Positions 115-20,928 of a DNA stretch of 52,445 nucleotides are shown here, piece by piece. The notes under the pieces are model-generated. The model searched no databases. It saw only the letters and a program-made list of their open reading frames with translations, and was not told where the DNA came from. This DNA is from Paracoccaceae bacterium (GTDB lineage: Bacteria > Pseudomonadota > Alphaproteobacteria > Rhodobacterales > Rhodobacteraceae): NCBI GenBank assembly GCA_007116575.1, contig SKIF01000074.1:1-52445 (forward strand), written 5' to 3'. Each line of letters begins with the position of its first letter. Position 1 is the first letter of the stretch. The position numbers and the translations under genes are program-made.

Positions 115-351
115 CTAGACCAGCACATCGAACAGATCGCTATCCGGCGCAACCACCAGCCTGCGGATGTTGTTCGGGCGGTCAGCGTCATAGCCCCGGT
201 CTGACAGTTGCTTCAGGAAGGTCTCGCGGCTGTCAGGGTCGCTCCAGACTTTGCGCAGGTGGTCTTCGTCCGTGATCAACCCTGTCAGATCACCGAACAA
301 CCGCTCCATGAACTCCTGCGCCGAAATCGGCAGCGGGCCACCCCTCAGTTT
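115..351 (-). pseudogene. Type I restriction enzyme R subunit (HsdR), C-terminal remnant
   Basis: An open stretch of about 78 codons reads like the C-terminal region of HsdR/EcoEI-type R subunits. It contains the segments PISAQEFMERLFGDL, LITDEDHLRKVWSDPDSR and RLVVAPDSDLFDVLV. In the family this region contacts the methylase/specificity complex. The helicase and nuclease domains are absent. The frame ends early at a TAG where the family normally continues (FDVLAYV-like), and upstream it runs straight into the end of the dehydrogenase gene at 345. It is therefore a broken relic with no start codon or ribosome site of its own. Recognition is from memory of the family and is fairly strong. Confidence 0.65.
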
Positions 352-1367
352 CCCATCGGGAAATCATCCGGTCCCGATGTGAGCGACAGGATGATCTTGG
401 CCGCAGAGACGACGCCTGCCTCCAGATCGGCGAAAGCCTTCGGGCCGTCAGCCAGCGGGCGGGTGCTGACCCAGCCAAGCGCGCCAAGACACCCTTTGTC
501 GAGCGCATCGAGTGCGGCCGCAAAATCCGCAGGTGTGTAGCAATAACTGCCGGTGATCGTGATTTCCTGCAAGGTGATGCGGCGGATGTCATAGCCGTCA
601 CTGCCGGGCAAAAGCCCCACATGCACGATCACGCCGCCGGGCCGAACCAGCCTTGACGCCGCTTGTCGTGTCGCAACCGCGCCGACCGCATCAATGATCA
701 GGTCATAGGCGCTTTCGCCCGGATCATGACTGAGCGGGTCAAAGCCCGTGATCCCCGGCTCTGTATCCAGCAGCGCACGACGACCCGGGTGAGGTTCGGC
801 GACATCGATGACCTCTGCGCCCATGTGCCGCGCGACGAGCGCCGCGCCCAGCCCGATCGCGCCGCCACCTTGCACCAGCACGCGCGGGCGCGGCGCGCCC
901 AGCCGCTCCAGCCCGATCCGCATGGCGTGCCAGGACACCGCTATCGGCTCGCTCAGCGCCGCGTCGCGCAGTCGCATGCCCTCGGGCACGGGCAGCAGGT
1001 TGCGCTCGGGAATTGCGACATACTCGGCAAAGGCACCGGGGCGCGGGGGCATCGAGATTATCGCGCGCGAGGGCGACAGATGCGGGCGACCCGCGCGCGC
1101 AATCGGGCAATCCGGGTCCACGACAAGCGGGTTGATCGCGACGCGCTCGCCCTCGCGCGGGCCTGAGGCGATCACACCAGCCGCCTCGTGGCCCAGCACC
1201 AGCGGCGGGGGGCGACGGTCGTCATGGCCATGATAGGCGTGCATGTCCGAGCCGCAGATGCCGACGTCCGAGACGCGCACCAGAACCTCGCCCGCCTCGG
1301 GCACCGGCACCGGCTGCTCGGTCAGCACCATCTGGTTGGGTCCGGTATAGATAAGCGCGCGCATCAT
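345..1367 (-). CDS. Zinc-type medium-chain alcohol/polyol dehydrogenase (HpsP/HpsO-like candidate)
   Basis: A 340-residue MDR-family NAD(P)-dependent dehydrogenase. The N-terminal catalytic lobe has zinc ligands C38 (GICGSD) and H60-E61 (GHEAAG) plus a later SEP motif. The Rossmann lobe carries VQGGGAIGLGAA. The structural-zinc lobe, normally four cysteines, is reduced to one (VDPDCPIARAG), so the second zinc is probably missing. The start could be either of two adjacent ATGs, and the AAGGGG ribosome site suits the second (1364) slightly better. It is the last gene of the leftward operon, 6 bases after the SDR gene. With the HisD-like and SDR genes it could be one of the paired C2 dehydrogenases of dihydroxypropanesulfonate (DHPS) metabolism. 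A sorbitol/idonate-type activity is equally possible from sequence alone. Confidence 0.8.
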   Translation of the reverse strand: MMRALIYTGPNQMVLTEQPVPVPEAGEVLVRVSDVGICGSDMHAYHGHDDRRPPPLVLGHEAAGVIASGPREGERVAINPLVVDPDCPIARAGRPHLSPSRAIISMPPRPGAFAEYVAIPERNLLPVPEGMRLRDAALSEPIAVSWHAMRIGLERLGAPRPRVLVQGGGAIGLGAALVARHMGAEVIDVAEPHPGRRALLDTEPGITGFDPLSHDPGESAYDLIIDAVGAVATRQAASRLVRPGGVIVHVGLLPGSDGYDIRRITLQEITITGSYCYTPADFAAALDALDKGCLGALGWVSTRPLADGPKAFADLEAGVVSAAKIILSLTSGPDDFPMGN

Positions 1368-1373
1368 ATCCCC

Positions 1374-2150
1374 TTATTTTGCGGTGAACCCGCCATCGAC
1401 ATGCAGTGTCTGCCCTGTGATATAGGCCGAGGCATCAGAGCACAGAAAAACCGTCGCCCCGTAAAGATCCTCCATCTCGCCATTGCGACCGATGGCCGTG
1501 CGCGCGGCATTGGCGGCGGCCAGGTCTGCATCGGCAAAGACGGGGGCGGTCAGCGGTGTTGGGAAGAAACCCGGCGCAATGGCATTGCAGGTGATCCCCT
1601 GCCCCGAGAATTCCTGCGCCATCGCGCGGGTCAGTTGCACGATCCCGCCCTTGGCCGCACCGTATGGCGCGGAATTGGGGAAGGCGCGGCTCGATTGCAG
1701 CGACGCGAGGTTAAGCACCCGCCCCCAGCCGCGCGCGGCCATGCCGGGTGCCAGATGCTGCAGCAAAAGGAAGGGTGCGCGCAGATGCAGCGCCATATGC
1801 AAATCGAAGGCGGCGGACGTGACCTCAAGATAGGGCTGGCGCAGATTGACGCCTGCCGCATTGACTAGGATATCCACCTTCCCAGCAGCGTCGGCCAAGA
1901 CCTTTAGCGCATCGGGATCGGTCAGATCGGTCTGGTGCAGTGTCGCATCGAGCCCCTCATCGGACAATGCGGCGCGCGCCTCTTGCAGGCGCGCCGTATC
2001 GCGCGCGGCCAAATGCAGGCGCGCGCCCTGCAATCCCAATGCCCGCGCCATAGCCAGCCCGATGCCCGAATTGCCACCGGTCACGAGCGCGCGGCGACCG
2101 CCTAAATCGAACAGGGCGTCAAGTCGCGGCACGGTGCACCTTTTTGTCAT
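1374..2150 (-). CDS. SDR-family oxidoreductase (KduD/gluconate 5-dehydrogenase-like)
   Basis: A 258-residue classical short-chain dehydrogenase. It shows the cofactor motif TGGNSGIG (about residues 24-31), NAAG in the middle, the catalytic serine in [14 protein letters not shown], and a C-terminal [12 protein letters not shown]. The ATG at 2150 is chosen because GAGG lies six bases upstream; the upstream ATG at 2180 lies deeper inside the preceding gene. The gene overlaps the end of the aminotransferase gene by 32 bases, implying translational coupling. The family oxidises or reduces secondary alcohols, often sugar acids or polyols. Context suggests a substrate related to the imported compound, possibly DHPS stereoisomer interconversion. 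Confidence 0.85.
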
Positions 2151-3330
2151 CTGTCGCCTCGAGGGCCTGAATGAGCGCATCGGCGATCAGGTCGCAATCC
2201 TGTGCGCTCAGTTCCAGCGGCAGGCGGATGTCGCAGAGGGTTGCCTGGATCGCGCAGGCGCGGGGAACCTCGGCGGCTTGGGCACCGGGCCATTGGGCGG
2301 GGTTTGAACTATAGCCCTCGGGCAACGTACTGCCGAACCACTTGACCCAGACGCCTCGCGCGCGCGCTACGGCAATGAATGCCTCCATCGCGGCTGCATC
2401 GCGCGCGGGCAGACGAAACTGCAGCGATGACTGCGCATAGGCTTCCGCCTGTGGCCTTTGCGGCAGCACGAAACCGCGGGCGGCCTGCAAACGCTGCGCG
2501 ATCCGGTCGTGGCACCTGTTCCAATCGGCAACACGCTCGGGCAGAAGCGAAAGCTGCGGCAGGGCCAGCGCGGCCACAAGTGCAGACATGCGCAGTGAGT
2601 AATTTCCGCAGCGATCGGCCCATTTGGCCATCACCTCCTCGGGTGGGCAGGTGCCGTTCTGCCGGTAGAGCCGATAGCTGCCCGCATGCAGGATCGCTTG
2701 TGCGGCGACGTCATCGTCATCTGTGGTCAGGATGCCGCCCTCACCGGTATTCACATGTTTGCCGGACTGAAAGCTGAAACACCCGGCAAGCCCGAAATTA
2801 CCTGCCTGTCGCCCTGCCCAGCTTGCGCCGAGCGTATGAGCGCAATCCTCGATCAGGCTGATCCCCTCATTGCGGCACAGTTCCTCCAGCGCATCAAGGT
2901 CGCACAGATGTCCGCGCATATGCGACAGCAGCAGCACCCGCGCGCCCGAAGCGCGCGCCTTGGCCCGGAGATCGTCGAAATCTATTACCAGATCCTCAGT
3001 GATCTCGACCAAAACCGGGATCGCGCCGACATGCTGCAATGCCCCCGGAACCGGGCCCAACGAAAAGGCATTGAGCAGCACTTTCTCACCCGGTCGCACC
3101 CCTGCCGCTTTCAGTGCCAGGAACATAGCCGAGCCGCAGGAATTCAGCGCAACTGCGTATCGCCTGCCGGTTAGTTGCGCGAAGGCACGTTCCAGCGCGG
3201 CGACCGGTCCGCCATCGCCGCCTTCTTCCGAGTAGCGATGCAGACGCCCGGTCTCCATAAGTGCCGTGGCCTGCGCGATGGCCAGTGGCGGAATCTCGGG
3301 CGGGCGACCCAGATCGGTTGGGGCAGACAT
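2119..3330 (-). CDS. DegT/DnrJ/EryC1/StrS-family PLP aminotransferase
   Basis: A 403-residue fold-type I PLP enzyme. Visible features are [17 protein letters not shown] near residues 62-78, the cofactor aspartate in [11 protein letters not shown] (D162), and the Schiff-base lysine K191 in [14 protein letters not shown]. Members normally transaminate keto-sugars, less often small keto compounds. It starts four bases after the HisD-like gene and overlaps the SDR gene, so it is a central part of the operon. An aminotransferase is not part of the known DHPS route, which makes this gene the odd one out. It may act on an amino analogue of the substrate or on sulfopyruvate/cysteate-like intermediates. 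Family assignment is firm; the substrate is unknown. Confidence 0.85.
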
Positions 3331-3333
3331 GGC

Positions 3334-4713
<1,380 letters not shown>

Positions 4714-5760
4714 TTACTCGTTATTGGCAAAGGCCCGAAGCTCCGGGTCATCCATGACCATCTGCATGAATGTGGCGTTGATATAGTCCGCCGCATCAGG
4801 GGTGGATTCGGTCGTGCCGACCGAGGTCATGAAATCGCCGATAGCCGTCAGCCACTGGTCCACGTCGCTGTGACCGTCGGAGCGGTCCATCAGTGCAACC
4901 TGCTCTTCAAGCGAGAAGGTCGGGCGCAGGTCGAATTCGGCATTCACTGCCGCATCCGAGATCTCAATCCCGCCATCCGAGTAGAAATCGACCAGATGAC
5001 GGCGGGCTTCCTCGGGGTTTTCCCGCGCCCAGACCACACCACGCAGGAAGGCTGCCAGCACGCGGGCGACCAGTTCGGGGCTCTCTTCGGCAAAGCCGGG
5101 GCGCACCACCAGCGCGCCGGGCACGATGGCACCGGCATCCGCACCAGAGCACAGGTAGTCACTGTCGGCACGCTCTTGCAGCGTGTAGGTATTGGGTGCC
5201 CAGACTCCCGCGAGATTGGCCTCGCCTGCAATGATGCCAGTGATCACCTGCGCCTGCCCGAGATTGACGAACTCGACCGAATCGAGCGGCACGCCCATCA
5301 TCTCAAGGCACTGCTGCGTGGCGAAATCTACGGTTGAGTTGGTGGTCAGAAGAATACGCTCGCCCTCGATGCTGGAAGGATCGGCGCGAAAACCTTCGAT
5401 CGCGCTGTTGCGCGCCATAAGTGCGTTGCCTGCGCTTTCGTCATTGGTGATGCCAACTGTCACGAGGCCAAAACGGGCCGCGCCCAGCACCGCCGGGACG
5501 GAACCGGTGCCGCCCACATCCCAGTCATTGGCCTGGGCGGCGGCAATCTGCGGCGCGCCTGCCGGGAAGGTGGTGAAGCTCGGGTCGAGGCCCACCTCGG
5601 CCCACCAGCCGAATTCGGTCGCCAGATAGAAGGGCAACGCCCAGTAGAGCGCGGGCTGATAGCTGAGATTGATCGGCGTCAGATCCTGCGCCTGTGCGGG
5701 TGCCATTGTCGTGAAGCTTGCCGCGGTGGCCAGCGCCACGGCCTTGAAGGTCAGTTTCAT
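4714..5760 (-). CDS. ABC transporter substrate-binding protein, nitrate/sulfonate/taurine (SsuA/TauA, NMT1) class
   Basis: A 348-residue periplasmic binding protein. Residues 1-24 are a Sec signal peptide with a basic start, hydrophobic core and APAQA-Q cleavage site. The mature part has the NMT1/SsuA hallmarks of a YxPALYW-LPFYLATEFGWWAEVGLD opening, a PQIAAAQANDWDVGGTGSVPAV ligand-side segment and two alpha/beta lobes. A strong AAGGAGGA ribosome site precedes the ATG. It delivers the ligand to the two permeases encoded upstream in the operon. The class binds sulfonates, nitrate, taurine, pyrimidines or aromatics, so the ligand is inferred only from the HpsN-like gene downstream. Confidence 0.85.
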   Translation of the reverse strand: MKLTFKAVALATAASFTTMAPAQAQDLTPINLSYQPALYWALPFYLATEFGWWAEVGLDPSFTTFPAGAPQIAAAQANDWDVGGTGSVPAVLGAARFGLVTVGITNDESAGNALMARNSAIEGFRADPSSIEGERILLTTNSTVDFATQQCLEMMGVPLDSVEFVNLGQAQVITGIIAGEANLAGVWAPNTYTLQERADSDYLCSGADAGAIVPGALVVRPGFAEESPELVARVLAAFLRGVVWARENPEEARRHLVDFYSDGGIEISDAAVNAEFDLRPTFSLEEQVALMDRSDGHSDVDQWLTAIGDFMTSVGTTESTPDAADYINATFMQMVMDDPELRAFANNE

Positions 5761-5793
5761 TGGTTGGTCCTCCTTGTTGTGATTGGTCGTTTC

Positions 5794-6591
5794 TCAGGCG
5801 TGCTGCGCCGCCTTTTCTTCGCGCAGGCTGCGCCAGATATGCGTGCGCAGATGAACGAAACTTTCGAGGTCCATCACATCCTCGATCTTCTCGTGGCTGT
5901 CCCAATCCTCGGCATTCCGCACCGAGGCGACATCCAGTACCTCCTTTATCCGCCCTGGCGCGCGGGTCATGATCGCCACGCGGTCGGCCAGATAGACGGC
6001 TTCCTCCACTGCATGGGTGATGAACAGCACTGTGCGCGGGTTCTTGCGCGCCAGCCGCACGAGTTCCTCTTGCATCACGACGCGGGTCTGCGCGTCGAGT
6101 GCGCCGAACGGCTCGTCCATCAGCAGCACATCGGGGTCGAGCACATAGGCGCGGGCAATCGCCACGCGCTGTTGCATCCCGCCCGAAAGCTGGTGCGGAA
6201 AATGCTTGGCATATTGCGTGAGGTTCATCAGGTTCAGGATCGCGTCGATGCGCTGGGCGCGTTCCGAACTGCTGACATTGAGATTGCGTAGGCCCAGATC
6301 GATATTGTCATAGACCGATTTCCACGGGAACAGCGCGAATTGCTGGAACACCACCGCCCGGTCGGGGCCGGGGCGTTTGATCGGCGTGCCGTCGACCGAG
6401 ACCACTCCGTCAGTCGCATTCTCGAAGCCTGCAACCATGCGCAGGCAGGTGGTCTTGCCACAGCCCGAAGGGCCGACAATGGCGACGAATTCCTTGTCGC
6501 CAATCTCGAGATTGATGTCCTTCAGCGCCTCGAAGCCCGACCCGCGCGGTCCGAAGATCTTGCCGACATTCTGAAACCGGATCACACCCAT
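5794..6591 (-). CDS. ABC transporter ATP-binding protein (SsuB/TauB-type)
   Basis: A 265-residue cytoplasmic ATPase. Walker A GPSGCGKTT spans residues 40-48, the Q-loop is VFQQFALFPW, the signature LSGGMQQR is at 135-142, Walker B VLLMDEPFGALD begins at 155, and the switch histidine is H193. This is the standard architecture of the nitrate/sulfonate/taurine transporter family, and the length is typical. It lies between the second permease gene and the binding-protein gene in the operon. It powers import through the two membrane subunits encoded at 6617-8189. Confidence 0.92.
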   Translation of the reverse strand: MGVIRFQNVGKIFGPRGSGFEALKDINLEIGDKEFVAIVGPSGCGKTTCLRMVAGFENATDGVVSVDGTPIKRPGPDRAVVFQQFALFPWKSVYDNIDLGLRNLNVSSSERAQRIDAILNLMNLTQYAKHFPHQLSGGMQQRVAIARAYVLDPDVLLMDEPFGALDAQTRVVMQEELVRLARKNPRTVLFITHAVEEAVYLADRVAIMTRAPGRIKEVLDVASVRNAEDWDSHEKIEDVMDLESFVHLRTHIWRSLREEKAAQHA

Positions 6592-6616
6592 GACCGCTCC
6601 TTCCCCTGTCTCTGCC

Positions 6617-7402
6617 TCACTGCTCTAGCCCGCGGCGCTTCTGGATGAAGCGCTCGAAGGCGCGCAGCGCAGTGTCGAGCGCCAACCCGACAAGCCCGAT
6701 GGCGACCATTCCGGCCATCACGGTATGTGTCTGGATATTGGCCTGCCCCTGCACCATCATGTAGCCGACGCCCGCCGAGGCGACGATCAGCTCTGCACCC
6801 ACCAGTGACTGCCAGCCCAGGCCCGCCGAGACCCGCAACCCCGAGATGATCGAGGGCACCGACGAGGGCAGCAGCACTTCCATGATGACCCGGCGCGACG
6901 GCGTGCCCAGCATGTTCGCAGCCTCGATCAGGCGCGGGTCAACGAATTTCGCGCCGCGATAGGCGTTGATCACGCAGGGCGGAAAGGCCCCGGCAAAGAT
7001 GATCATGATCGGCCCGCCGATGCCGGTGCCGAACCATAGCGCGGCGAAAGGCACCCAGGCGATGGGCGCGACGAAGCGTAGCGCATCAAAGAGCGGCGAC
7101 ACGATCTCATCAAGGAGCTGATACCACCCCATAAGCAGTCCCAGCGGGATGCCGATAGCAGCCGCCAACAGAAAGCCGTAGGCGAAACGCTGGAAACTCG
7201 CCGCCAGATGGCCCGGCAGGGTGGCACCTGCAAAGCGCCGGTCGAGCAGCGTCATGAAGCGATCATAAACCTCGAGCGGCGAGGGCAGGAAAATGTTCGA
7301 GACAAGCCCGCTCATCGACATGCCCTGCCAGAAGCCAAGGAAACAGGCGAGGCCCAGAAAACCAAGGCCGATGGATTGAAGAAGGCTGATCTGACGGTTC
7401 AT
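6617..7402 (-). CDS. ABC transporter permease (SsuC/TauC family), subunit 2
   Basis: A 261-residue inner-membrane protein of the binding-protein-dependent permease family. It has an N-terminal hydrophobic helix followed by the six-helix permease core. The EAA coupling loop reads DPRLIEAANMLGTPSRRVIMEVLLPSSVPSIISGLR, where the ATPase docks. It follows the first permease gene after four bases, so the pair is translated together. Two different permease genes point to a heterodimeric channel, whereas SsuC and TauC normally form homodimers. Confidence 0.9.
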   Translation of the reverse strand: MNRQISLLQSIGLGFLGLACFLGFWQGMSMSGLVSNIFLPSPLEVYDRFMTLLDRRFAGATLPGHLAASFQRFAYGFLLAAAIGIPLGLLMGWYQLLDEIVSPLFDALRFVAPIAWVPFAALWFGTGIGGPIMIIFAGAFPPCVINAYRGAKFVDPRLIEAANMLGTPSRRVIMEVLLPSSVPSIISGLRVSAGLGWQSLVGAELIVASAGVGYMMVQGQANIQTHTVMAGMVAIGLVGLALDTALRAFERFIQKRRGLEQ

Positions 7403-7406
7403 CGCG

Positions 7407-8189
7407 TCACCCTTTCGCAGCCAGAGCGGCAGTATTCCAGCGCAGCGCGCGCGCCTCGGCCATTCCCAGAACCCGAGTTGTCCCCCAACCCAGGATCGCC
7501 ACTGCGATCATTCCGACAAGAATCATGCCCGGATACAGGTCCTGCTGCGCCACGTTCAGCACCCGGCCAATGCCGTAAAACGCGCCGACAAGTTCGGCCG
7601 CCACCAGCGTTGTCCACGATGCCTGTAGCGACAGTCGCAGACCGGTGAAGATCATCGGGCTGGCACCGGGGACAAGCACCTCGGTGACAAACCGGAATTT
7701 CGGCATCCCGAGCATATATGCAGCTTCGAGCACCGGGCGGTCGATATTGCGTACGCCCGCAAAGGTGTTGATGACCGAGGGCACGAAGGCCGAGAACCAG
7801 ATCACCATGATCTTTGCCGCATCACCCAGCCCGAGCCAGAGGATTGCAAGAGGAATCCAGGCCAGTGGCGGAATCGGGCGGATGATCAGGAAGATCGGGT
7901 TGATGAAGGCTTCGGCCTTGCGGCTCCAGCCCATCAGAAGGCCAAGCGGCACACCAGTCGCAATGGCAAACAGGAAGCCCATGACCACGAGGCGCAAAGA
8001 GTTATAGACATGCAGCGTCAGATCGCCGCCACCATAGCCGCGCCCCGAAACATGCACGAGCGCAGACCATGTTTCAGCGGGCGAGGGAAAGCGGCCTGAG
8101 GGGACGATCCCGAACAGCGTGGTCATGGCGAGCCAGAGGACACAGACGATCAGGATGGTCGCCAACCCTATGGACATTCTCCGTGGCAC
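7407..8189 (-). CDS. ABC transporter permease (SsuC/TauC family), subunit 1
   Basis: A 260-residue inner-membrane permease and the promoter-proximal gene of the operon. The EAA loop reads NIDRPVLEAAYMLGMPKFRFVTEVLVPGASPMIFTGLR. A GTG at 8189 is chosen as the start because GGAGGAG lies about seven bases upstream. The longer frame from 8246 would read through the operator region and has no ribosome site. An ATG at 8177 is a fallback. It pairs with the product of the next gene to make the translocation pore. Confidence 0.88.
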   Translation of the reverse strand: MPRRMSIGLATILIVCVLWLAMTTLFGIVPSGRFPSPAETWSALVHVSGRGYGGGDLTLHVYNSLRLVVMGFLFAIATGVPLGLLMGWSRKAEAFINPIFLIIRPIPPLAWIPLAILWLGLGDAAKIMVIWFSAFVPSVINTFAGVRNIDRPVLEAAYMLGMPKFRFVTEVLVPGASPMIFTGLRLSLQASWTTLVAAELVGAFYGIGRVLNVAQQDLYPGMILVGMIAVAILGWGTTRVLGMAEARALRWNTAALAAKG

Positions 8190-8220
8190 CCGACCTCTCC
8201 TCCCCAGTGAGTCCGTGATG

Positions 8221-8237
8221 ATGTAAACGCTTTCATA
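8221..8237. promoter_or_regulatory. LacI-family operator
   Basis: The 14-mer TGTAAACGCTTTCA (8222-8235) fits the classic LacI/CcpA-type consensus TGNAANCGNWNNCA, with the central CG. It sits between the divergent ABC operon and the LacI gene at 8343, just upstream of the chosen GTG start of the first permease gene. This position suits repression of the operon by the neighbouring regulator. No experiment or genome comparison was available. Confidence 0.65.
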
Positions 8238-8244
8238 TTTCATC

Positions 8245-8289
8245 ATTTCCTGTCAAGGAAATTTCTTAATTTGTTGTGAAATTCCTTGA
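8245..8289. promoter_or_regulatory. Nested palindromes in the divergent control region
   Basis: ATTTCCT-GTCA-AGGAAAT (8245-8262) is a perfect 7-base inverted repeat. It overlaps a longer one, TCAAGGAAATTTC (8253-8265) facing GAAATTCCTTGA (8278-8289). The stretch is AT-rich against a GC-rich background, as expected for a promoter with regulator sites. Which protein binds is unknown; the adjacent LacI protein or a second regulator are candidates. Confidence 0.5.
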
Positions 8290-8342
8290 TTCATGCAAAA
8301 CTTGCTCAGAATCGTAATGTAAATTTTCATCAGGAGCGGGGA

Positions 8343-9362: not shown

Positions 9363-9507
9363 GGTTTTCGTCCCAAAGAACAGTGATCGGATTTGGCAGA
9401 GCCGCATCAAAGATGTGAACCAGCTTGTTCGGCCTGGATGCAGCAACTCCACCGGACGGACCGAGGCAGACGAAAAGCCGCTGCTTAGGCGCAATACAAC
9501 GCACCCT

Positions 9508-9645: not shown

Positions 9646-9688
9646 CGCACGCAGCTAGGTCTTGACCCGGAGCGCGGCGATTGCCGTG

Positions 9689-11150: not shown

Positions 11151-11177
11151 CCGGTTCTTGTTCATGCAGTTGTCAGA

Positions 11178-12260: not shown

Positions 12261-12291
12261 CTTGGCTTTCCTCCCTTTTTGGATTGGTTCG

Positions 12292-13578: not shown

Positions 13579-13582
13579 GATC

Positions 13583-14128
13583 TCAGCTCCCTGCGCCGGT
13601 GGATGAGCCGAAGACATTCACCTGATACCGGCCCGGATCGAAGAGATTGCCGATCAGCCGCAACAGCCGTTCCAGCGAGACCAGCGCGACCAGCGCAAAG
13701 CCGATGGGCATGATTGCGTAGACATACATCAGCGGCAGGCGCAGCGAGAGGGTGTAACTGGTCGCGGCGCGCGACATCAGCCCCCAGCCATACCAGATTG
13801 CTCCGCAGAGCAGCACGAAGACCGACAATTCGATCAGCAGGCCGACATAGCGCATGATCGGGCGGTGCTGAAGCGAGGCCACAAAAATATCAAGGCTGAC
13901 ATTCATCCCATAGCGATGGGCCGTCGGGAAATAGAGGAAGGCCATCCAGACCATCATGGTGCGCGACAGCTCTTCGGTCCAGCCGAAGCTGTCGCCCAGC
14001 ACATAGCGGTAGAAGACATGCACGATGACGATGCCGAGCATGCCGAACAGAAGCGCGGTTGCGGCATATCCCGCGACGCGTGTCAGCCATCGGTTCACGA
14101 CATCCAGCGCGCGGATGACTGCGTCCAT
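13583..14128 (-). CDS. TRAP transporter small permease (DctQ family)
   Basis: A 181-residue membrane protein with four predicted helices. The DctQ mark is the second-helix region YRYVLGDSFGWTEELSRTMMVWMAFL. The ATG at 14128 is preceded by AGGGAGGGGG, far better than the start of the longer frame (14278), which lies in the AT-rich promoter. It is the first gene of the leftward TRAP operon and faces the dehydratase gene across a 265-base control region. Confidence 0.9.
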   Translation of the reverse strand: MDAVIRALDVVNRWLTRVAGYAATALLFGMLGIVIVHVFYRYVLGDSFGWTEELSRTMMVWMAFLYFPTAHRYGMNVSLDIFVASLQHRPIMRYVGLLIELSVFVLLCGAIWYGWGLMSRAATSYTLSLRLPLMYVYAIMPIGFALVALVSLERLLRLIGNLFDPGRYQVNVFGSSTGAGS

Positions 14129-14393
14129 TCTGCCCCCTCCCTGGCATCGCCCTGCGATCCGGCCTCCACCAAATCGCAGCGCTGCGAAAAAGCTAACATG
14201 CGAGGCGCGCACTGTCAATTCTGGAGTTAATTCCGAAAAAATAAAGAAAAACAAAATATTAAATACTATTCGGCGCATAGGCCTCCGAGTCTTGCTGATT
14301 CAATATTTCTAATCTTGCAGCGATTGGAAATTACTGACACACTACCAGACGACAGGTTCCGGTATGCTCTTGCATGCCGCTGGGGAGGGAGTC
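14129..14393. promoter_or_regulatory. Divergent control region between TRAP and catabolic operons
   Basis: These 265 bases separate divergent starts. They hold a perfect 14-base palindrome TCGCAGCGCTGCGA at 14174-14187, a plausible LacI-family site, and an AT-rich block at about 14215-14280 typical of promoters in this GC-rich genome. The regulator encoded at 9838-10890 is the obvious candidate binder. No clear -35/-10 pair was assigned. Confidence 0.5.
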
Positions 14394-16115
14394 GTGTCGA
14401 GGCGAAGTCTTGCAGAATTACGCAGCCAGCGATGGTATGCCGCACAAGACATGCGTGGCTTCGCGCATCGTCAGCGCACGCAGCAGATGGGGCTGCGGCG
14501 CGAGGAGTTCATGGGCAAGCCCGTGATCGGGATCATCAACACCTGGTCGGACCTCAGCCCCTGCCACGCGCATCTGCGCGACCGCGCCGAGGCAGTGAAG
14601 CGCGCGGTCTGGGCGGCGGGCGGTTTTCCGGTGGAACTGCCCGCGCTCTCGCTGGGCGAGGTGATGGTCAAGCCCACCACCATGCTCTACCGTAATTTCC
14701 TGGCCATGGAATGCGAGGAACTCTTGCGCTCGCACCCGATTGACGGTGCGGTGCTGCTGGGCGGCTGCGACAAGACCACGCCGGGGCTGTTGATGGGCGC
14801 CATCTCGATGAATATCCCGGCGATCTTCTGCCCGGCAGGGCCGATGCTCAACGGGCGCTGGAGGGGCAGGACGGTCGGCGCAGGCACCCATACCCGCGCC
14901 TATTGGGACAAGCTGCGCTCGGGTGAGATCTCGCAAGACGACTGGATCGATCTGGAAAGCCGCATGACGCGCTCTTTCGGCACCTGCAACACGATGGGCA
15001 CTGCCTCGACCATGACCTCCATCGTCGACGCGATGGGGCTGACGCTGCCCGGCGCGTCCTCGGTTCCGGCGGCGGATTCGGGGCATGCGCGCATGGCCTC
15101 GGCCTGCGGGAGCCGCATCGTCGAGATGGTCTGGGAAAACCTGCGCCCCTCGGATGTGCTCAGCCCCGCATCCTTCGAGAATGGCGCGCGGGTGTTCATG
15201 GCACTGGGCGGCTCGACCAACGCGGCGGTGCATCTGGTGGCCTTGGCGCGGCGGGCCGGGGTCGATTTCGGCCTCACAGATCTGGACCGCGCAGCGGGCG
15301 AGGTGCCGGTGTTGGTCAATATCTTCCCGGCGGGCGATCGGCTGATGGAGGATTTCTATTTCGCGGGCGGTCTGCCTGCGCTTCTGGCGCGTCTGCGCGA
15401 CCATCTGGATCTGTCGGCCCGCACCGTCACCGGCACGCTGGCCGATATGCTGGAGGAGGCTGAATGCTTTGACGACAGCATGATCCGCCCGCTGAACAAC
15501 CCCGTGTCAAAGGCCGCCGCCATGGCCGTGCTGCGCGGCAATCTGGCCCCTGACGGTGCGGTCATCAAGCCGAGTGCGGCAAGCCCGCATCTGATGCAGC
15601 ACCGGGGTCGCGCGGTGGTGTTCGACACCCATGCCGATCTGGTCGCGCGTATCGATGACCCGGCCCTTGGCATCACGCCCGAGTCGGTGCTGGTGCTGCG
15701 CAATGCCGGCCCCAAGGGCGCGCCGGGCATGCCCGAATGGGGTGCGCTGCCGATCCCGAAATATCTGCTGGCGCAGGGCGTGCGCGACATGGTGCGCATC
15801 TCGGATGCACGGATGAGCGGCACGCATTACGGCACCTGCGTGTTGCATGTTGCGCCCGAAAGCGCAGTCGGCGGACCACTGGCGCTGGTGCGCGACGGCG
15901 ATGAGATTGCGCTGGATGTCGGCGCGAAGCGGTTGGAACTGCTGGTGCCCGAGGCCGTACTGGACGCCCGCCGCGCCGCCTGGACCCCGCCAAGCCCACG
16001 CAGCGCGCGCGGCTATACGGCGCTTTTCTGCGAGCATGTCACACAGGCCGACAAGGGCTGCGATTTCGAGATACTGCAAGGCGGGCCGGATGAGCCCGAG
16101 CCGGAAATCTTCTGA
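14394..16115 (+). CDS. IlvD/Edd-family sugar-acid dehydratase (6-sulfogluconate dehydratase candidate)
   Basis: A 573-residue dehydratase. Its three iron-sulfur ligands are visible: C57 (SDLSPCHAH), C125 (GGCDKTTPG) and C198 (FGTCNTMGTAST). The length and the HLRDRAEAVKRAV region suit the pentonate/hexonate branch (arabinonate-type) rather than valine biosynthesis. GTG at 14394 is chosen as the start for its GGGAGG site; an upstream ATG at 14364 lacks one. It removes water from an aldonate to give a 2-keto-3-deoxy acid for the aldolase encoded 9 bases later. The same family provides the 6-deoxy-6-sulfogluconate dehydratase of sulfo-ED. Confidence 0.88.
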   Translation: MSRRSLAELRSQRWYAAQDMRGFAHRQRTQQMGLRREEFMGKPVIGIINTWSDLSPCHAHLRDRAEAVKRAVWAAGGFPVELPALSLGEVMVKPTTMLYRNFLAMECEELLRSHPIDGAVLLGGCDKTTPGLLMGAISMNIPAIFCPAGPMLNGRWRGRTVGAGTHTRAYWDKLRSGEISQDDWIDLESRMTRSFGTCNTMGTASTMTSIVDAMGLTLPGASSVPAADSGHARMASACGSRIVEMVWENLRPSDVLSPASFENGARVFMALGGSTNAAVHLVALARRAGVDFGLTDLDRAAGEVPVLVNIFPAGDRLMEDFYFAGGLPALLARLRDHLDLSARTVTGTLADMLEEAECFDDSMIRPLNNPVSKAAAMAVLRGNLAPDGAVIKPSAASPHLMQHRGRAVVFDTHADLVARIDDPALGITPESVLVLRNAGPKGAPGMPEWGALPIPKYLLAQGVRDMVRISDARMSGTHYGTCVLHVAPESAVGGPLALVRDGDEIALDVGAKRLELLVPEAVLDARRAAWTPPSPRSARGYTALFCEHVTQADKGCDFEILQGGPDEPEPEIF

Positions 16116-16124
16116 AAGGACCAC

Positions 16125-16931
16125 ATGATGACGAGCGAGACCAATCGCTTCAAGCACTGGATGCAGGCGCGGGAGGGCGCCGTGCCTCTGGGCACATGGA
16201 TCATGTCCGCAAGTCCGATCATCGCCGAGGCGCTGGGCCATGCGGGTTATGACTGGATCCTTGTCGATATGGAGCATTCACCAATCGACCTCGCGCAGAC
16301 GACCGCGATCATGCAGGCGCTCTCTGGCACACCGTCCGAGGTGGTCGTGCGCGTGCCGTGGAACGACGCGGTCACGGTCAAGCGGGTGATGGACGCGGGC
16401 GCACGCTCGATCATGTTTCCCTTCATCCAGTCGGTCGAGGAAGCCCGCTCGGCCGTGGCGTCCACGTGCTACCCGCCGCAGGGCACGCGCGGCGTGGCCG
16501 CGATGCACCGCGCCAGCCGCTTCGGGACCGCGTCCGATTACCTCGCTCGCGCCAATGATCAGGTTGCGGTCATCCTGCAACTGGAGACCCCCGAGGCCGT
16601 GGCGCTTTTGCCCGAGATTGCCGCGCTCGACGGCGTGGATGCGATCTTCATCGGACCTGGAGATCTGTCGGGCGGCATGGGGCTACTGGGGCAGATCAAA
16701 CACCCCGATGTGCAGGCCGCGCTCGGCGACGCTGCCGAAGCTGCCCGCAAGGCGGGCATCGCCTGCGGGATTGTCGGCGCTGACCCGGCCACTGTGCGCG
16801 GCTATGTCGAGATGGGCTTCACTTACGTCGCCATAGCTTCGGATCTGGGGCTGTTGATGGGCGCGGCGACTGCCTCGATCCGCGATATCCGGGGGCAGGC
16901 CGCGCCCGAGGCGGCAGGCGGCGTGTATTGA
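16125..16931 (+). CDS. HpcH/HpaI-family class II aldolase for a 2-keto-3-deoxy acid
   Basis: A 268-residue TIM-barrel aldolase. Visible catalytic residues are the histidine in VDMEHSPID (H51), R76 in VVVRVPWN, the metal ligands E154 (LQLETPEA) and D180 (GPGDLS), and the glycine-rich GTRGVAAMHRASRFG loop. It cleaves a 2-keto-3-deoxy acid into pyruvate plus an aldehyde. In KDR or deoxyfuconate pathways the aldehyde is lactaldehyde; in sulfo-ED a family member releases 3-sulfolactaldehyde. AAAGGA precedes two tandem ATGs. It is encoded directly after the dehydratase, which gives its substrate class but not the C6 group. Confidence 0.88.
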   Translation: MMTSETNRFKHWMQAREGAVPLGTWIMSASPIIAEALGHAGYDWILVDMEHSPIDLAQTTAIMQALSGTPSEVVVRVPWNDAVTVKRVMDAGARSIMFPFIQSVEEARSAVASTCYPPQGTRGVAAMHRASRFGTASDYLARANDQVAVILQLETPEAVALLPEIAALDGVDAIFIGPGDLSGGMGLLGQIKHPDVQAALGDAAEAARKAGIACGIVGADPATVRGYVEMGFTYVAIASDLGLLMGAATASIRDIRGQAAPEAAGGVY

Positions 16932-16940
16932 GAGGCTGGC

Positions 16941-17807
16941 ATGGGCTTTGAGACCGCATATCCCGCGCAGGCCGCGCTTGGCGAATGCCCGCTCTGGTGC
17001 GGTGAGTCCCGGCGCCTGTGGTGGGTTGATATCGAGGCTCCCGCGATCCATTGCTTCGACCCTGCGACAGGCGCGAACACCACGCTGCCGATGGACGAGA
17101 ATGTCGGCTGTATCGCGCTGCGCGCGCAGGGCGGCTTCATCGCCGGGCTGCGTTCGGGGCTCTGGCTGCTGGACGATCAGGGCCGCAAGGAAAAGCTGAT
17201 CGCCAACCCACAGCCCGACACCACAATCAGCCGCTTCAATGATGGCCGCGCCGACCCTTGGGGCCGGTTCTGGGCAGGCACGATCCACGAGCCCCGCGAC
17301 CGCCCGGCCGCCATGCTCTGCCGGGTGGACCCGGATCTGAGTTGCACGCGCGTCGCGGGCGATATCAAGGTCTCGAACGGGGTGGCCTTTTCGCCCGACC
17401 GGGCGTGGATGTATCATTCCGACACGCCCGAACATGTGATCTACCGATACCCGCTGGACGCAGAGGGCAGCCCTGGCCCGTGCGAGGTCTTTCACCGATT
17501 TCCCTTCGGCAATGGTCGCCCCGATGGTGCCGCCGTTGATGCCAAGGGCTTCTACTGGTCGGCGCTCTATGAGGGCGGGCGCGTGGTGCGGCTTTCGCCC
17601 GCAGGCGAGATCGTGGCGGAATTCCCGGTGCCCGCGCGCTGCCCGACAATGTGCGCCTTTGGCGGGCCGGATCTGCACACGCTCTATGTCACCTCCGCGC
17701 GGCACGGGCGTCCGGCAGAGGAATTGGCAGACTGGCCCGCATCGGGCAATCTCTTTGCGATGCGGGTCGATGTGCCGGGCCTGCCCGAGCCGAGATTTCA
17801 GGGGTAG
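16941..17807 (+). CDS. SMP-30/gluconolactonase-family lactonase
   Basis: A 288-residue six-bladed beta-propeller. Metal-site residues of the family can be seen: the glutamate in LGECPLW (E15), the asparagine in SRFNDGRADP, the asparagine in VSNGVAFS and the aspartate in RPDGAAVD. Together they hydrolyse an aldonolactone. It follows the aldolase gene by 9 bases and is followed without a gap by the SDR gene. The logical role is opening the lactone that the SDR makes from a sugar. The set SDR, lactonase, dehydratase, aldolase is therefore complete. Confidence 0.88.
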   Translation: MGFETAYPAQAALGECPLWCGESRRLWWVDIEAPAIHCFDPATGANTTLPMDENVGCIALRAQGGFIAGLRSGLWLLDDQGRKEKLIANPQPDTTISRFNDGRADPWGRFWAGTIHEPRDRPAAMLCRVDPDLSCTRVAGDIKVSNGVAFSPDRAWMYHSDTPEHVIYRYPLDAEGSPGPCEVFHRFPFGNGRPDGAAVDAKGFYWSALYEGGRVVRLSPAGEIVAEFPVPARCPTMCAFGGPDLHTLYVTSARHGRPAEELADWPASGNLFAMRVDVPGLPEPRFQG

Positions 17808-18566
17808 ATGATGACCGAGCTTGCGCATTACCCTTCGCTGTCGGGGGCTTCGGTGCTGGTGACGGGCGGGGCCACCGGCCTTGGTGCCGATGTCGTGCGC
17901 GCGATGCGCGCGCAGGGCGCGCAGGTGGGCCTGCTCGATCTCGACGCCGAGGCAGGCGCGGCGCTGGCCAGTGAGACCGGCGCGCATTTCCGCCACGCCG
18001 ATATGCGCGATCTGGACGCCCTGCCGCAGGTCATCGCGGAACTGGCAGAGGCGACGGGCCCGTTCACTGTGCTGGTGAACAATGCCGCGCGCGATGACCG
18101 CCATGATTTCGCAGACCTCACCCCGGATTACTGGCGCGACTGCCTCGCGACCAACCTCTCGCACCATGTCTTTGCCGCGCAGGCCGTGGCGCCGGGCATG
18201 GCCGAGGCAGGGGGCGGGAGCATCATCAACATGGGCTCGATCAGCTGGATGCGCGGGCGGCCCGGCATGCTGGGCTATACCACCGCCAAGGCTGCGATTC
18301 ATGGGCTGACCCGCACGCTGGCGCAGGAGCTGGGGTCGCTGGGCATCCGTGTCAATTCGGTCGTGCCCGGCGCGGTCCTGACCGAGCGGCAGGCGAAACT
18401 CTGGCTCACGCCCGAAAAGAATGCCGAATTTCTGGCACTGCAGGCGCTCAAGTTCCGGCTTGAGCCCAAACATGTCACGCCCATGGTGCTGTTTCTCGCC
18501 TCAAGCGCGAGCGCAGGCTGCACCGGGCAGGATTTCATCGTCGATGCCGGGCTGACCCTGAACTGA
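17808..18566 (+). CDS. SDR-family sugar 1-dehydrogenase (candidate sulfoquinovose/aldose dehydrogenase)
   Basis: A 252-residue classical SDR. The cofactor motif is TGGATGLG, followed by VNNAARDD, the serine in NMGSISWM, the YTTAK catalytic pair and the C-terminal GQDFIVDAGL. The WMRGRPGMLGYTTAKAAIHGLTRTLA segment is like aldose 1-dehydrogenases for xylose, arabinose, galactose and rhamnose. The first ATG directly abuts the lactonase stop codon. It should oxidise the sugar at C1 to the lactone, the first step of the module. Sulfoquinovose dehydrogenase of sulfo-ED belongs to the same family, so sequence alone does not settle the substrate. Confidence 0.85.
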   Translation: MMTELAHYPSLSGASVLVTGGATGLGADVVRAMRAQGAQVGLLDLDAEAGAALASETGAHFRHADMRDLDALPQVIAELAEATGPFTVLVNNAARDDRHDFADLTPDYWRDCLATNLSHHVFAAQAVAPGMAEAGGGSIINMGSISWMRGRPGMLGYTTAKAAIHGLTRTLAQELGSLGIRVNSVVPGAVLTERQAKLWLTPEKNAEFLALQALKFRLEPKHVTPMVLFLASSASAGCTGQDFIVDAGLTLN

Positions 18567-18591
18567 CCCGGCGCAGGAAAGGATAGAGGGG

Positions 18592-19713
18592 ATGACACCC
18601 ATCCGATATGGCATCATCGGCTCCGGCATGATGGGGCAGGAGCATATGCGCAATATCGCGCTTCTGGACGGCGCTCGGGTAAGCGCGGTCTGCGACCCCG
18701 ATGAGGGGATGCGCATGCAGGCGCAGGCGCTGGCGGGGCAGGGGGCGCAGGCCTTCGGCGACCACCGGGCCCTGCTCGCAGCCGATCTCTGCGACGCCTA
18801 TGTTCTGGCGGCACCCAATGACCTGCATGCAGGGCTGATGCGCGAGTTGCTGGCCACCGACAAGCCGATCCTGTGCGAAAAGCCGCTGGCCACTACTGCC
18901 GCCGATTGCCGCGCGCTGATGCAGGCCGCCGAAGCGCGGCGCGCGCCGGTCTGGGTGGCGATGGAGTATCGCTACATGCCGCCTGTAGAGCGTTTGCGCG
19001 CGGCACTGGCCGAGGGGGTCGCGGGCACCCCGCGCATGGTCTCGATCCGCGAGCACCGCTTTCCGTTTCTGGCGAAAGTCGGCGACTGGAACCGGTTCAA
19101 CGCGCGCACTGGCGGCACCATGGTCGAGAAATGCTGCCATTTCTTCGACCTGATGCGCCTGTTGCTGAACGCGGACCCGATCCGCGTCTATGCCAGCGGC
19201 GGCGCGGATGTAAACCACAAAGACGAGCGGTATGACGGGCGCACACCGGACATGGTGGACCACGCCTTCGTGACAGTCGATTTCGCGGGTGGCACGCGGG
19301 CGATGCTGGAGTTGTGCATGTTCGCCGAGGGCTCGCATTGGCAGGAGGTCGTCTCGGTCACGGGTGAGAAGGCGCGGCTCGATGCCTGCGTGCCGGGGCC
19401 TGCGCGCTTTGCGCCTGACGGGCAAGAGCGGCATTCGGAATTCGTGATCTCGGACCGCGTCACCAAGCGCGAGATCCGCGAAGTGGTCGATGTCGACGCG
19501 CGCATCCTGCGCGCGGGCGACCATCACGGCTCGACCTATTTCCAGCATGTCCGGTTCCTCGATCTGGTGCGTGCGGGGCGGGGCACGCCCGAGGTCAGCC
19601 TCGCCGATGGCTACTGGTCGGTGCTGGTCGGCGAGGCGGCAGAGCAGTCGATTCGAACGCATCAGGTGATCGACCTGCGCACGAATGGTCACTCGACCGC
19701 GTCGGCTGCGTGA
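18592..19713 (+). CDS. Gfo/Idh/MocA-family NAD(P)-dependent protein (possible NAD-dependent glycosidase)
   Basis: A 373-residue protein. The N-terminal Rossmann domain starts IRYGIIGSGMMGQEHMRN, the EKPLATT motif carries the conserved lysine, and a C-terminal alpha/beta substrate domain contains GGTMVEKCCHFFDLM with H183. Typical members oxidise sugars or inositols. A branch of this fold is known to act as NAD-dependent sulfoquinovosidase (GH188), which would supply the missing first step if this module uses sulfoquinovosides; no other glycosidase gene is present. The gene starts 25 bases after the SDR and runs into the next gene's leader. Family is certain; activity is open. Confidence 0.8.
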   Translation: MTPIRYGIIGSGMMGQEHMRNIALLDGARVSAVCDPDEGMRMQAQALAGQGAQAFGDHRALLAADLCDAYVLAAPNDLHAGLMRELLATDKPILCEKPLATTAADCRALMQAAEARRAPVWVAMEYRYMPPVERLRAALAEGVAGTPRMVSIREHRFPFLAKVGDWNRFNARTGGTMVEKCCHFFDLMRLLLNADPIRVYASGGADVNHKDERYDGRTPDMVDHAFVTVDFAGGTRAMLELCMFAEGSHWQEVVSVTGEKARLDACVPGPARFAPDGQERHSEFVISDRVTKREIREVVDVDARILRAGDHHGSTYFQHVRFLDLVRAGRGTPEVSLADGYWSVLVGEAAEQSIRTHQVIDLRTNGHSTASAA

Positions 19714-19724
19714 AGGGGGCAGGC

Positions 19725-20648
19725 ATGAATGATATCGTGATCTCGGAATTCATGGACGAGCCCGCCGTGGACTGGTTGCGCGAACGCTTCGCGGTCACCT
19801 ATGACCCGAGCCTTGTCGATGACCCGGAGCGGCTGAACGCGGCCTGTGCCGGGGCACGCGGGCTGATCGTGCGCAACCGCACTCAGGTGCGCGAGGCGCT
19901 GCTGGCCGCCAGCCCGAAGCTCAAGGCGGTCGGGCGGCTGGGCGTCGGGCTCGACAATATCGACCTTGCGGCCTGCAAGGCACGCGATGTCGCCGTGTTT
20001 CCGGCCACCGGGGGCAATACGGTCTCGGTCGCGGAATATGTCATCACCGCGGTGCTGATGCTGCGTCGCAAGGCCTGGCTGGGCAGCGCCGAAGTGCTGG
20101 CGGGGGGCTGGCCGCGCCAGCGCATGATGGGGCTGGAGGTCTCGGGCGCGACGCTGGGGCTGCTGGGCTTCGGAGCCATCGCGCAGGCGGTCGCGACCCG
20201 CGCGCAGGCGATGGGAATGCAGATCGCCGCCCACGATCCGTTCGTGGCAGTCGACCACCCCGCCTGGGTAGGGGTGCAGAATTGCGAAAGCGTCGAGGCG
20301 CTGCTGGCGGTTTCAGATGCGCTGAGCCTGCATGTGCCGCTGACCGATCAGACCCGCAACCTGCTTGACGCCGCACGGCTTTCCCGCATGAAGCCCGGCG
20401 CGGTGCTGGTCAACACCGCCCGTGGCGGGATCGTGGACGAGGCCGCGCTGGCCGGGGCGCTTGCGAGCGGTCATCTGGCCGGTGCCGCGCTTGATGTTTT
20501 CGACGCGGAGCCTCTGCCCGATGACAGCGTCCTCAAGGGCGCGCCGGGCTTGATCGCCACCCCGCATATCGCGGGCGTCACGGTTGAATCCAACACCCGG
20601 ATCAGCTGGATCACAGCGGAAAACGTCGCCCGCAGTCTCCGGACATGA
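19725..20648 (+). CDS. D-isomer-specific 2-hydroxyacid dehydrogenase ((S)-sulfolactate dehydrogenase-like)
   Basis: A 307-residue NAD-dependent 2-hydroxyacid dehydrogenase. The cofactor motif is LGFGAIAQAVATRAQAMG, the catalytic arginine lies in NTARGGIVDE and the histidine in ATPHIAGVT. The N-terminus IVISEFMDEPAVDWL, followed by RGLIVRNRTQV, resembles enzymes annotated as (S)-sulfolactate dehydrogenase (SlcC); this resemblance is from memory. The ATG at 19725 has AAGGGGGC upstream. It could oxidise the sulfolactate or lactate produced downstream of the aldolase. A generic hydroxypyruvate or phosphoglycerate dehydrogenase-like role is the alternative. Confidence 0.85.
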   Translation: MNDIVISEFMDEPAVDWLRERFAVTYDPSLVDDPERLNAACAGARGLIVRNRTQVREALLAASPKLKAVGRLGVGLDNIDLAACKARDVAVFPATGGNTVSVAEYVITAVLMLRRKAWLGSAEVLAGGWPRQRMMGLEVSGATLGLLGFGAIAQAVATRAQAMGMQIAAHDPFVAVDHPAWVGVQNCESVEALLAVSDALSLHVPLTDQTRNLLDAARLSRMKPGAVLVNTARGGIVDEAALAGALASGHLAGAALDVFDAEPLPDDSVLKGAPGLIATPHIAGVTVESNTRISWITAENVARSLRT

Positions 20649-20679
20649 CGGCCCTTTCGCAAGTCAGACAGGAGCGAAG

Positions 20680-20928
20680 ATGCTTGACCAACCCACCAGC
20701 CTGAAATCGCGCTTGTCCGATCCTGCGCTACTTGAGACCCGCGCCTATGTGGGCGGGGAGTGGTGCCAGGCCGATCATGGCGCCACCTTCGAAGTGCGCA
20801 ATCCCGCGCGCGGCGATGTGATCGCGCAGGTTGCCGATCTGGGCTGCGCGCACTGGCAAGGCGCGCAGGGGCGTGCTGCGCCGCTGGTTCGATTTGATGA
20901 CGGCCCGGGTTTTCGGATTTCTCGCTGA
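20680..20928 (+). pseudogene. Truncated aldehyde dehydrogenase (GabD/sulfolactaldehyde-type N-terminus)
   Basis: A good ribosome site (CAGGAG) and ATG start a frame whose first ~55 residues are the N-terminus of an aldehyde dehydrogenase: TRAYVGGEWCQADHGATFEV then RNPARGDVIAQVADLG. After about 20845 the family pattern is lost and the frame ends at 20928. The Rossmann and catalytic cysteine domains (about 400 residues) are missing. An intact enzyme would oxidise the aldehyde from the aldolase (lactaldehyde or sulfolactaldehyde). Its loss by deletion leaves the pathway incomplete at this locus unless another copy exists. Confidence 0.75.

Follow-up and report, generated by a model that had tools for sequence, protein, structure and literature searches.

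Sulfoquinovose (SQ) and 2,3-dihydroxypropane-1-sulfonate (DHPS) are large organic sulfur pools that are usually degraded by two bacteria in turn. The closest described systems to the locus analyzed here are the sulfo-Entner-Doudoroff (sulfo-ED) pathway of Pseudomonas putida SQ1 and Rhizobium leguminosarum SRDI565, and the hpsRNOUP-suyAB cluster of Cupriavidus pinatubonensis for DHPS. The locus lies on a single contig of 52,445 nucleotides (the window; G000:C27:1-52445) from a Rhodobacteraceae-type bacterium, whose genome comprises 2.65 Mb in 142 contigs and is 87% complete; the nearest named relatives that we encountered are metagenome genomes titled 'Rhodobacteraceae bacterium'. Labels of the form G### denote genomes compared, L### loci, and C## contigs of the window's own genome. 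With a probability of about 0.78 we read the window as containing a two-module organosulfonate island, made up of a DHPS module (345-9362) and a sulfo-ED module (9838-20648, or 9838-21049 with relics).

Each module is already known. With the sulfo-ED clusters of P. putida SQ1 and R. leguminosarum SRDI565 the window shares dehydrogenase, lactonase, IlvD/Edd dehydratase and HpcH/HpaI aldolase as well as the SQ dehydrogenase residues, but it has a tripartite ATP-independent periplasmic (TRAP) transporter instead of ATP-binding cassette (ABC) uptake, a GH188 instead of a GH31 enzyme, an SlcC-like gene in the operon and a broken aldehyde dehydrogenase (ALDH) gene. LacI, HpsN, HpsO and HpsP are common to the C. 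pinatubonensis cluster (41-70%), from which the window differs by an ABC transporter in place of the major facilitator superfamily protein HpsU, by an additional DegT gene, and by a mere scar where suyAB would stand. HpsN-HpsO-HpsP also recur in two hps clusters, one from Paracoccus seriniphilus and the other from the sister species G179. Both add suyAB, comC and an exporter, but DegT is absent from them and their hps genes are accompanied by TRAP transporters, in contrast to the ABC transporter and DegT of the window.

Sulfosugar and sulfolactate genes in one cluster have been published before (PMC12421959; PMC11465081; statements on cited papers refer throughout to the excerpts available). 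The tandem sulfofucolytic-sulfolactate sulfolyase pathway of Paracoccus wurundjeri joins sulfosugar ED and SlcC-type sulfolactate genes as the window does, but it uses another dehydratase family and has SuyAB and ComC, and HpsN-HpsO-HpsP are not reported for it in the excerpts. The GH188 Tyr158/Tyr160 clusters (PMC11465081) likewise combine GH188 with sulfolactate genes, but contain Embden-Meyerhof-Parnas-like genes, whereas the window has the ED set and a Leu at position 170. The genome of Ensifer sp. HO-A22 has both sulfo-ED and DHPS clusters, while the excerpts of its description mention neither adjacency of the two nor DegT (PMC10599462). Two further loci in our comparison hold SQ and sulfolactate genes together: in L141 (G306) a GH188 gene lies beside suyA and suyB, and in L142 (G308) it occurs with suyAB, exporter, SlcC-like and ComC-like genes. 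Our literature searches returned no description of sulfo-ED and DHPS modules side by side with DegT, and the newest element is the DegT clade. Sulfo-ED genes beside DHPS genes, together with the scar of a sulfite-releasing block, would provide a concrete case of one cell gaining or giving up complete mineralisation.

Gene content and diagnostic residues

The four core enzyme families of the sulfo-ED pathway are all found in one cluster of the window (Table 1), and the gene order IlvD-aldolase-SMP30-SDR (short-chain dehydrogenase/reductase) is identical to that of Shinella HZN7; sulfo-ED has been assigned to a Shinella relative (PMC13372026). The substrates of three of the four enzymes we infer from context. 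The SDR has SQ dehydrogenase as its best PDB match and keeps nine of nine tested residues of the SQ dehydrogenase PpSQDH for catalysis, SQ binding and sulfonate binding (taken from PMC12133307), including Arg152 and Arg154. Position 152 is an arginine in the window, in B. multivorans L005 (whose cluster we read as sulfo-ED from its own genes) and in Shinella L006, but a Glu, Gln or Met in all 12 control genomes; position 154 is an arginine in the window and in B. multivorans, an Asn in Shinella, and an arginine in none of the controls. The control SDRs are 50-54% identical to PpSQDH and comprise 14 rows from 12 genomes, two genes having been fetched twice, and the absence of sulfo-ED neighbours was checked for three of these controls (L046, L047 and L049). 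Note that relatives of the SDR are common, with matches at E <= 1e-45 in 166 of 295 family genomes, so that its presence alone says little.

The most diagnostic gene of the ED module is the one for the GH188-type Gfo/Idh/MocA protein. Its product keeps the eight placeable SqgA residues of the catalytic and sulfonate sites (K107, Y136, R166, L170, K172, E189, H193 and H321; PMC10755693); Glu163 of that paper could not be placed, as the numbering used here gives Val at this position in the reference itself. DctP and DctM are 41% and 51% identical to TRAP genes beside sqgA in Salipiger CCB-MM3, and the ED operon is syntenic in G295 at 81-95%, with DctP at 85% and the LacI regulator of the module at 83%. 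The 2-hydroxyacid dehydrogenase is called SlcC-like because its P. seriniphilus homologue adjoins a comC-like gene and sits near suyAB-like genes. An earlier note on this DNA had proposed both an SDR-lactonase-IlvD-HpcH/HpaI set as in sulfo-ED and an SlcC-like dehydrogenase; the former is supported by the SQ dehydrogenase residues, the gene order and the GH188 gene in the operon, the latter by this homologue.

In the DHPS module, the HisD-family protein matches the solved C. pinatubonensis HpsN (CpHpsN, 8v35) with 692 bits, as opposed to 259 bits for the best solved histidinol dehydrogenase. It contains GRYAH, an instance of the motif G-R-Y-A/S-H by which HpsN can be told from HisD and whose final His senses the sulfonate (PMC11382572). 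A HisD-family tree of 60 rows was built, which took up 49 of the 51 HpsN-type genes from the best 80 DegT loci described below, two being too short. As evidenced by this tree, the window protein lies in a 20-row clade (100/99), apart from biosynthetic HisD, with C. pinatubonensis HpsN, G179 and two other DegT rows; the same clade holds 15 of 15 rows from loci with DegT, HpsN, HpsO and HpsP and none of the 17 Cuy-linked rows. Two of the four other HpsNOP rows (P. seriniphilus and G230) fall outside it. The possibility that the protein is the biosynthetic histidinol dehydrogenase was rejected on the tree; a TIGR00069 match above cut-off sits at C8:8736-9917, and the biosynthetic HisD of the genome, compared with four HpsN-type queries, reaches 36% identity at best. 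The likeness to HpsN suggested in the earlier note thus holds, on the grounds of sequence identity, motif and clade. The mere presence of a HisD relative says little, because such relatives occur in 202 of the 295 family genomes at E <= 1e-100.

The HpsO-like SDR reaches 295 bits against 9pvq, whose printed stretch equals annotated C. pinatubonensis HpsO in 101 of 102 residues, and 252 bits against HpsO 8wwf; the SDR triad is kept, as is an S-L-Q stretch that includes the Gln identified in RpHpsO. The HpsP-like protein, a medium-chain dehydrogenase (MDR), keeps CGSD and GHE with the His-Glu catalytic residues. For both proteins residues were judged by eye from the alignment. Homology and catalytic residues together support the earlier suggestion that this SDR and MDR act as HpsO and HpsP. 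The nine-gene DHPS operon including DegT is also found in G074 (58-85%), L050, L051 and L053, with a copy in L052 that is clipped by the contig start, and its LacI regulator is 58-80% identical to its counterparts in the operons of G074, L050, L051 and L053 and to the LacI of the G179 locus. In G179 the three hps dehydrogenases are 76-87% identical and accompanied by a TRAP transporter, comC, suyAB and exporter; DegT was not found at this hps locus. In G074:C3 (L044), which belongs to another genus, the ABC-HpsN-DegT-HpsO-HpsP operon is complete, and the DHPS-DegT module stands alone there, as the genome has no match to the ED-type SDR at E <= 1e-45.

The junction, the sulfite-releasing step and competing explanations

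The families listed in the earlier note were all confirmed as open reading frames; it had not named DegT, the two LacI regulators, the TRAP transporter and the GH188 protein. It had further listed a TauE/SafE-like relic, with no place given. The relic found in the junction is the end of an exporter gene, scoring 52.8 bits versus a best of 25.0 in 300 mononucleotide shuffles of the junction, and as its intact relative in L050 is PF03601, it belongs to another family. Beside it lies the end of a GntR/UTRA regulator gene. In L050 and G179, exporter and GntR genes flank comC-suyA-suyB with their ends pointing outwards, in the orientation of the two tails in the junction. In the simplest reading, a gntR-comC-suyA-suyB-exporter block apparently once stood between the modules and was deleted from inside; a scan of the window gave no trace of SuyA, SuyB or ComC at E <= 0.01. 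At the far end of the ED operon, the aldehyde dehydrogenase fragment noted earlier is indeed present, with an aldose-1-epimerase fragment directly after it. The G295 operon continues past the 2-hydroxyacid dehydrogenase into an intact 503-residue GabD-type ALDH and a 335-residue epimerase, and a single deletion would explain both truncated genes together.

We also considered that comC-suyAB might be cut off by the contig start, since in L050 they lie downstream of HpsP; bases 1-344, however, show no match to any of them. Directly past the HpsP stop, on the minus strand, these bases read by eye as the closing part of an HsdR-type protein, followed by the first part of an IS630-type transposase; the contig therefore probably breaks in a mobile element.

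A search of the genome gave no SuyB, and for Xsc, CuyA and ComDE all matches fell far short of the cut-offs; an Ldh-family match at C118 is 40% identical to ComC. The earlier note had already stated that SuyAB, Xsc and ComDE are absent from the window. The ED cluster has no intact sulfolactaldehyde (SLA) dehydrogenase or reductase gene, its ALDH being a relic. A GabD-type ALDH at C59 is 83% identical to the ALDH of the G295 operon, but may be an ordinary succinate-semialdehyde dehydrogenase, since a 77% copy occurs in G179, with an SDR match of just 46%, and a second, 79% copy lies outside the ED operon of G295. The proposal that SQ cleavage and the use of the C3 sulfonate are joined in one region therefore stands as far as the presence of both modules goes, but not for the sulfolyase, which is missing, nor for the local SLA dehydrogenase, which is decayed.

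An ordinary non-phosphorylative pentose or deoxyhexose pathway, with the sulfonate reading merely borrowed from the neighbouring module, is an improbable explanation for the right-hand genes. Two properties of the dehydratase speak for it and against a sulfo-ED assignment: the protein exceeds the NCBI cut-off for L-arabinonate dehydratase (915 versus 882 bits), so that it does not discriminate by itself, and it is 69% identical to P. seriniphilus araD versus 67% to the Shinella enzyme. The best NCBIfam match of the SDR, moreover, is D-xylose 1-dehydrogenase, under its cut-off (303 versus 400 bits), and SDR homologues without the sulfonate arginines are common. We nevertheless rejected this pathway on the sulfonate-arginine test, as Arg152 and Arg154 are kept in the window and 12 of 12 control genomes lack both, which, for the dehydrogenase, also speaks against the placement of the ED enzymes with rhamnose, fucose or arabinose clades that the earlier note had named as refuting; the top PDB match of the SDR and the GH188 gene with its sulfonate-site residues in the same operon point the same way. 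A sulfofucose pathway as in P. wurundjeri is very unlikely. It would suit the dehydrogenase, lactonase and aldolase families, comes from the same bacterial family and is linked to SlcC-type genes as well (PMC12421959), but it employs an enolase-family dehydratase (PF13378/PF02746), and was rejected because the dehydratase of the window is PF00920, as in the SQ pathway. In addition, no sulfofucosidase was found there according to the excerpts (PMC12421959), and SQ glycosides are the substrates of all GH188 enzymes described to date (PMC10755693).

We regard it as similarly improbable that the two modules were joined by an assembly or binning error and form no island. In G295 no hps gene was found within ~9 kb to one side of the ED cluster or 12 kb to the other, nor do the modules adjoin each other at the end of L051 that was tested, and the window is one of the 142 contigs of its genome. 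However, the junction has its own decayed sequence, whose two gene tails are oriented as around comC-suyAB in G179 and L050, and the nearest relatives of both modules occur in the same genomes, sqgA reaching 86-90% in three of the four genomes that carry L050-L053. Each half by itself is more than a chance grouping of genes, the ED half being syntenic in G295 and the DHPS half in G074 and L050-L053.

Several further observations weigh against this island. The four structural-zinc cysteines found in C. pinatubonensis HpsP are missing from the HpsP-like protein and from 16 of the 17 relatives compared, with L059 alone having them. The sulfonate-class ABC transporter of the earlier note is present with binding protein, ATPase and two permeases (4714-8246), but its binding protein misses the SsuA family cut-off of 163.5 bits. 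The GntR relic is short and weak, at 33.5 bits versus a best of 23.1 in 300 shuffles, and the syntenic ED operon of G296 ends after the 2-hydroxyacid dehydrogenase, so that ALDH and epimerase are not fixed parts of it. The absence of a lyase refers to a genome that is 87% complete. Finally, the modules do not simply chain, since HpsN is R-specific and sulfo-ED yields S-sulfolactaldehyde (PMC12421959).

The DegT aminotransferase

The DegT protein, whose lysine K191 falls in an invariant alignment column, was followed through 84,980 species genomes with a seven-row alignment query, and the best 80 loci were kept; counts of neighbours among them hinge on per-family identity floors and half-query coverage. 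An HpsN-type gene is present in 51 of these loci (19 of the 34 with full flanks), 36 of which have it no more than 300 bases away from DegT. HpsN, HpsO and HpsP occur together in 14 of the 80, an HpsN-type gene plus CuyA or CuyB in 15, and CuyA in 19. Against a link to HpsN, 29 of the 80 loci are without such a gene (15 of the 34 with full flanks), and a neighbour scan of three of them (L113, L114 and L119) gave no sulfonate genes. On plasmids, 11 records carry DegT relatives at 41-52% identity, the next one being at 32%, and ten of the 11 also carry a HisD-list match, with the two genes at most 4 kb apart. Among the six records inspected, those of Ancylobacter, Pseudomonas, Mesorhizobium and P. 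seriniphilus have an annotated D-cysteine desulfhydrase and a racemase beside DegT, that of Polaromonas has DegT beside a racemase, and in that of Roseovarius W115 no HisD was seen. Of 18 genomes chosen from the DegT loci, eight have a GH188 match, three of them at 86-90%.

We tentatively propose that the DegT protein may be a so far undescribed aminotransferase for cysteinolate (2-amino-3-hydroxypropanesulfonate). It would convert cysteinolate to 2-oxo-3-hydroxypropanesulfonate, which HpsO- or HpsP-type enzymes would reduce to DHPS, and HpsN would then form sulfolactate from DHPS by oxidation. Where CuyA and CuyB are present in the cluster, cysteinolate would instead be oxidised to cysteate by the HpsN-type enzyme. 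Cysteinolic acid can exceed dimethylsulfoniopropionate in microalgae (PMC8703288), and our literature searches found no paper naming genes for cysteinolate catabolism. The DegT-HpsN pairing offers a testable gene candidate, and if the proposal is true, the bacteria of Pseudomonadota, Thermodesulfobacteriota, SAR324 and Actinomycetota that have HpsN-DegT operons would possess a route for an abundant algal solute.

It is rather doubtful that DegT is instead the missing cysteate/sulfopyruvate aminotransferase (Coa). The gene for this activity is unknown in R. pomeroyi (PMC11382572), and some DegT relatives have a CuyA-type gene as one direct neighbour and a CuyB-type gene as the other; family models for CuyA and CuyB were applied to the Ancylobacter proteins alone, and that pair lies above the curated cut-offs. 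A cysteate role would, however, be idle in many loci, given that just 19 of the 80 contain CuyA, and the joint occurrence with HpsN, HpsO and HpsP speaks against it as well. The closest solved relatives are amino-sugar, aminocyclitol and aminohydroxybenzoate enzymes, whose substrates are amino sugars, aminocyclitols and related amines derived from hydroxyketones, and not 2-oxo acids. As a separate observation, the operons of L008, L012, L013, L063 and L081 consist of a CuyA-type gene, DegT, a CuyB-type gene, a transporter and an HpsN-type gene, mostly in that order, and represent a candidate route from cysteinolate to pyruvate.

Predicted pathway and surroundings of the island

The substrates and fluxes given here, like the order of losses, the end product and the DegT reaction, we infer from the gene identities, key residues, synteny and relics observed. 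The TRAP transporter would take up SQ or SQ glycosides, from which the GH188 enzyme would free SQ. This would be converted via sulfogluconolactone, sulfogluconate and 2-keto-3,6-dideoxy-6-sulfogluconate (KDSG) to pyruvate and S-sulfolactaldehyde, and a GabD-type enzyme, possibly the C59 ALDH, would oxidise the latter to S-sulfolactate, the presumed substrate of the SlcC-like enzyme in forming sulfopyruvate. The ABC transporter would import C3 sulfonates. HpsO, HpsP and HpsN would convert both the R and the S form of DHPS by oxidation into sulfolactaldehyde or sulfolactate, the stereochemistry following PMC11131964 and PMC11382572, and DegT would probably supply an amino-sulfonate, for example cysteinolate. 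A connection between the modules could be made by HpsP, as the enzyme linking S-DHPS and sulfolactaldehyde. As no lyase was found, sulfolactate or DHPS is the likely end product, and in the present genome the island probably ends there, unless a lyase lies in the unassembled part.

Table 1. Genes and relics of the proposed island, in order of position.
Feature	Position	Strand	Basis
HpsP-like zinc-type alcohol dehydrogenase (MDR; putative S-DHPS dehydrogenase)	345-1367	-	51% to P. seriniphilus HpsP, 45% to C. pinatubonensis HpsP
HpsO-like SDR (putative R-DHPS dehydrogenase)	1374-2180	-	60% to annotated C. pinatubonensis HpsO
DegT-family pyridoxal phosphate (PLP) aminotransferase	2119-3330	-	clade linked to HpsN-type genes; K191
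HpsN (DHPS-3-dehydrogenase), HisD family	3334-4692	-	70% to CpHpsN; GRYAH; GDK; tree
ABC substrate-binding protein, SsuA/TauA-like	4714-5760	-	106 bits to SsuA_fam; weak matches to TauA and SsuA structures
ABC ATPase	5794-6591	-	family match
Two ABC permeases	6617-7402, 7407-8246	-	family match
LacI-type regulator of DHPS module (HpsR-like)	8286-9362	+	41% to LacI beside C. pinatubonensis hpsN
Relic, end of PF03601 exporter gene	9559-9696	-	80% over 35 aa to L042 exporter, E 3.6e-10; one internal stop
Relic, end of GntR/UTRA regulator gene	9689-9808	+	39-48% over 36-40 aa, best E 2.6e-4
LacI-type regulator of ED module	9838-11001	-	49% to LacI of Shinella cluster
TRAP transporter (putative uptake of SQ or SQ glycosides): DctP, DctM, DctQ	11178-12299, 12292-13617, 13583-14278	-	family matches
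IlvD/Edd dehydratase (putative sulfogluconate dehydratase)	14364-16115	+	67% to Shinella ED-cluster enzyme; PF00920
HpcH/HpaI aldolase (putative KDSG aldolase)	16125-16931	+	51-52% to Shinella and B. multivorans cluster aldolases
SMP-30 lactonase (putative sulfogluconolactonase)	16941-17807	+	54% to Shinella cluster enzyme; PF08450
SDR, sulfoquinovose dehydrogenase type	17808-18566	+	57% to PpSQDH; 284 bits to 9gwu
GH188-type NAD-dependent sulfoquinovosidase (SqgA), Gfo/Idh/MocA	18592-19713	+	419 bits to 8zn9, 374 bits to 8qc3
2-Hydroxyacid dehydrogenase, SlcC-like (putative S-sulfolactate dehydrogenase)	19710-20648	+	60% to P. seriniphilus gene
Relic, GabD-type ALDH (putative SLA dehydrogenase)	20677-20899	+	73% to residues 11-77 and 75% to residues 84-103 of G295 ALDH; two frames
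Relic, aldose-1-epimerase (mutarotase)	20903-21049	+	69% to residues 2-50 of G295 epimerase

To the right of the island, at 22651-25105 and beyond, the window continues with ordinary genes, by eye a phosphoglycerate kinase and two peptidyl-prolyl isomerases, and further right with a DUF2927 protein, a PLP-family protein and a large histidine kinase.

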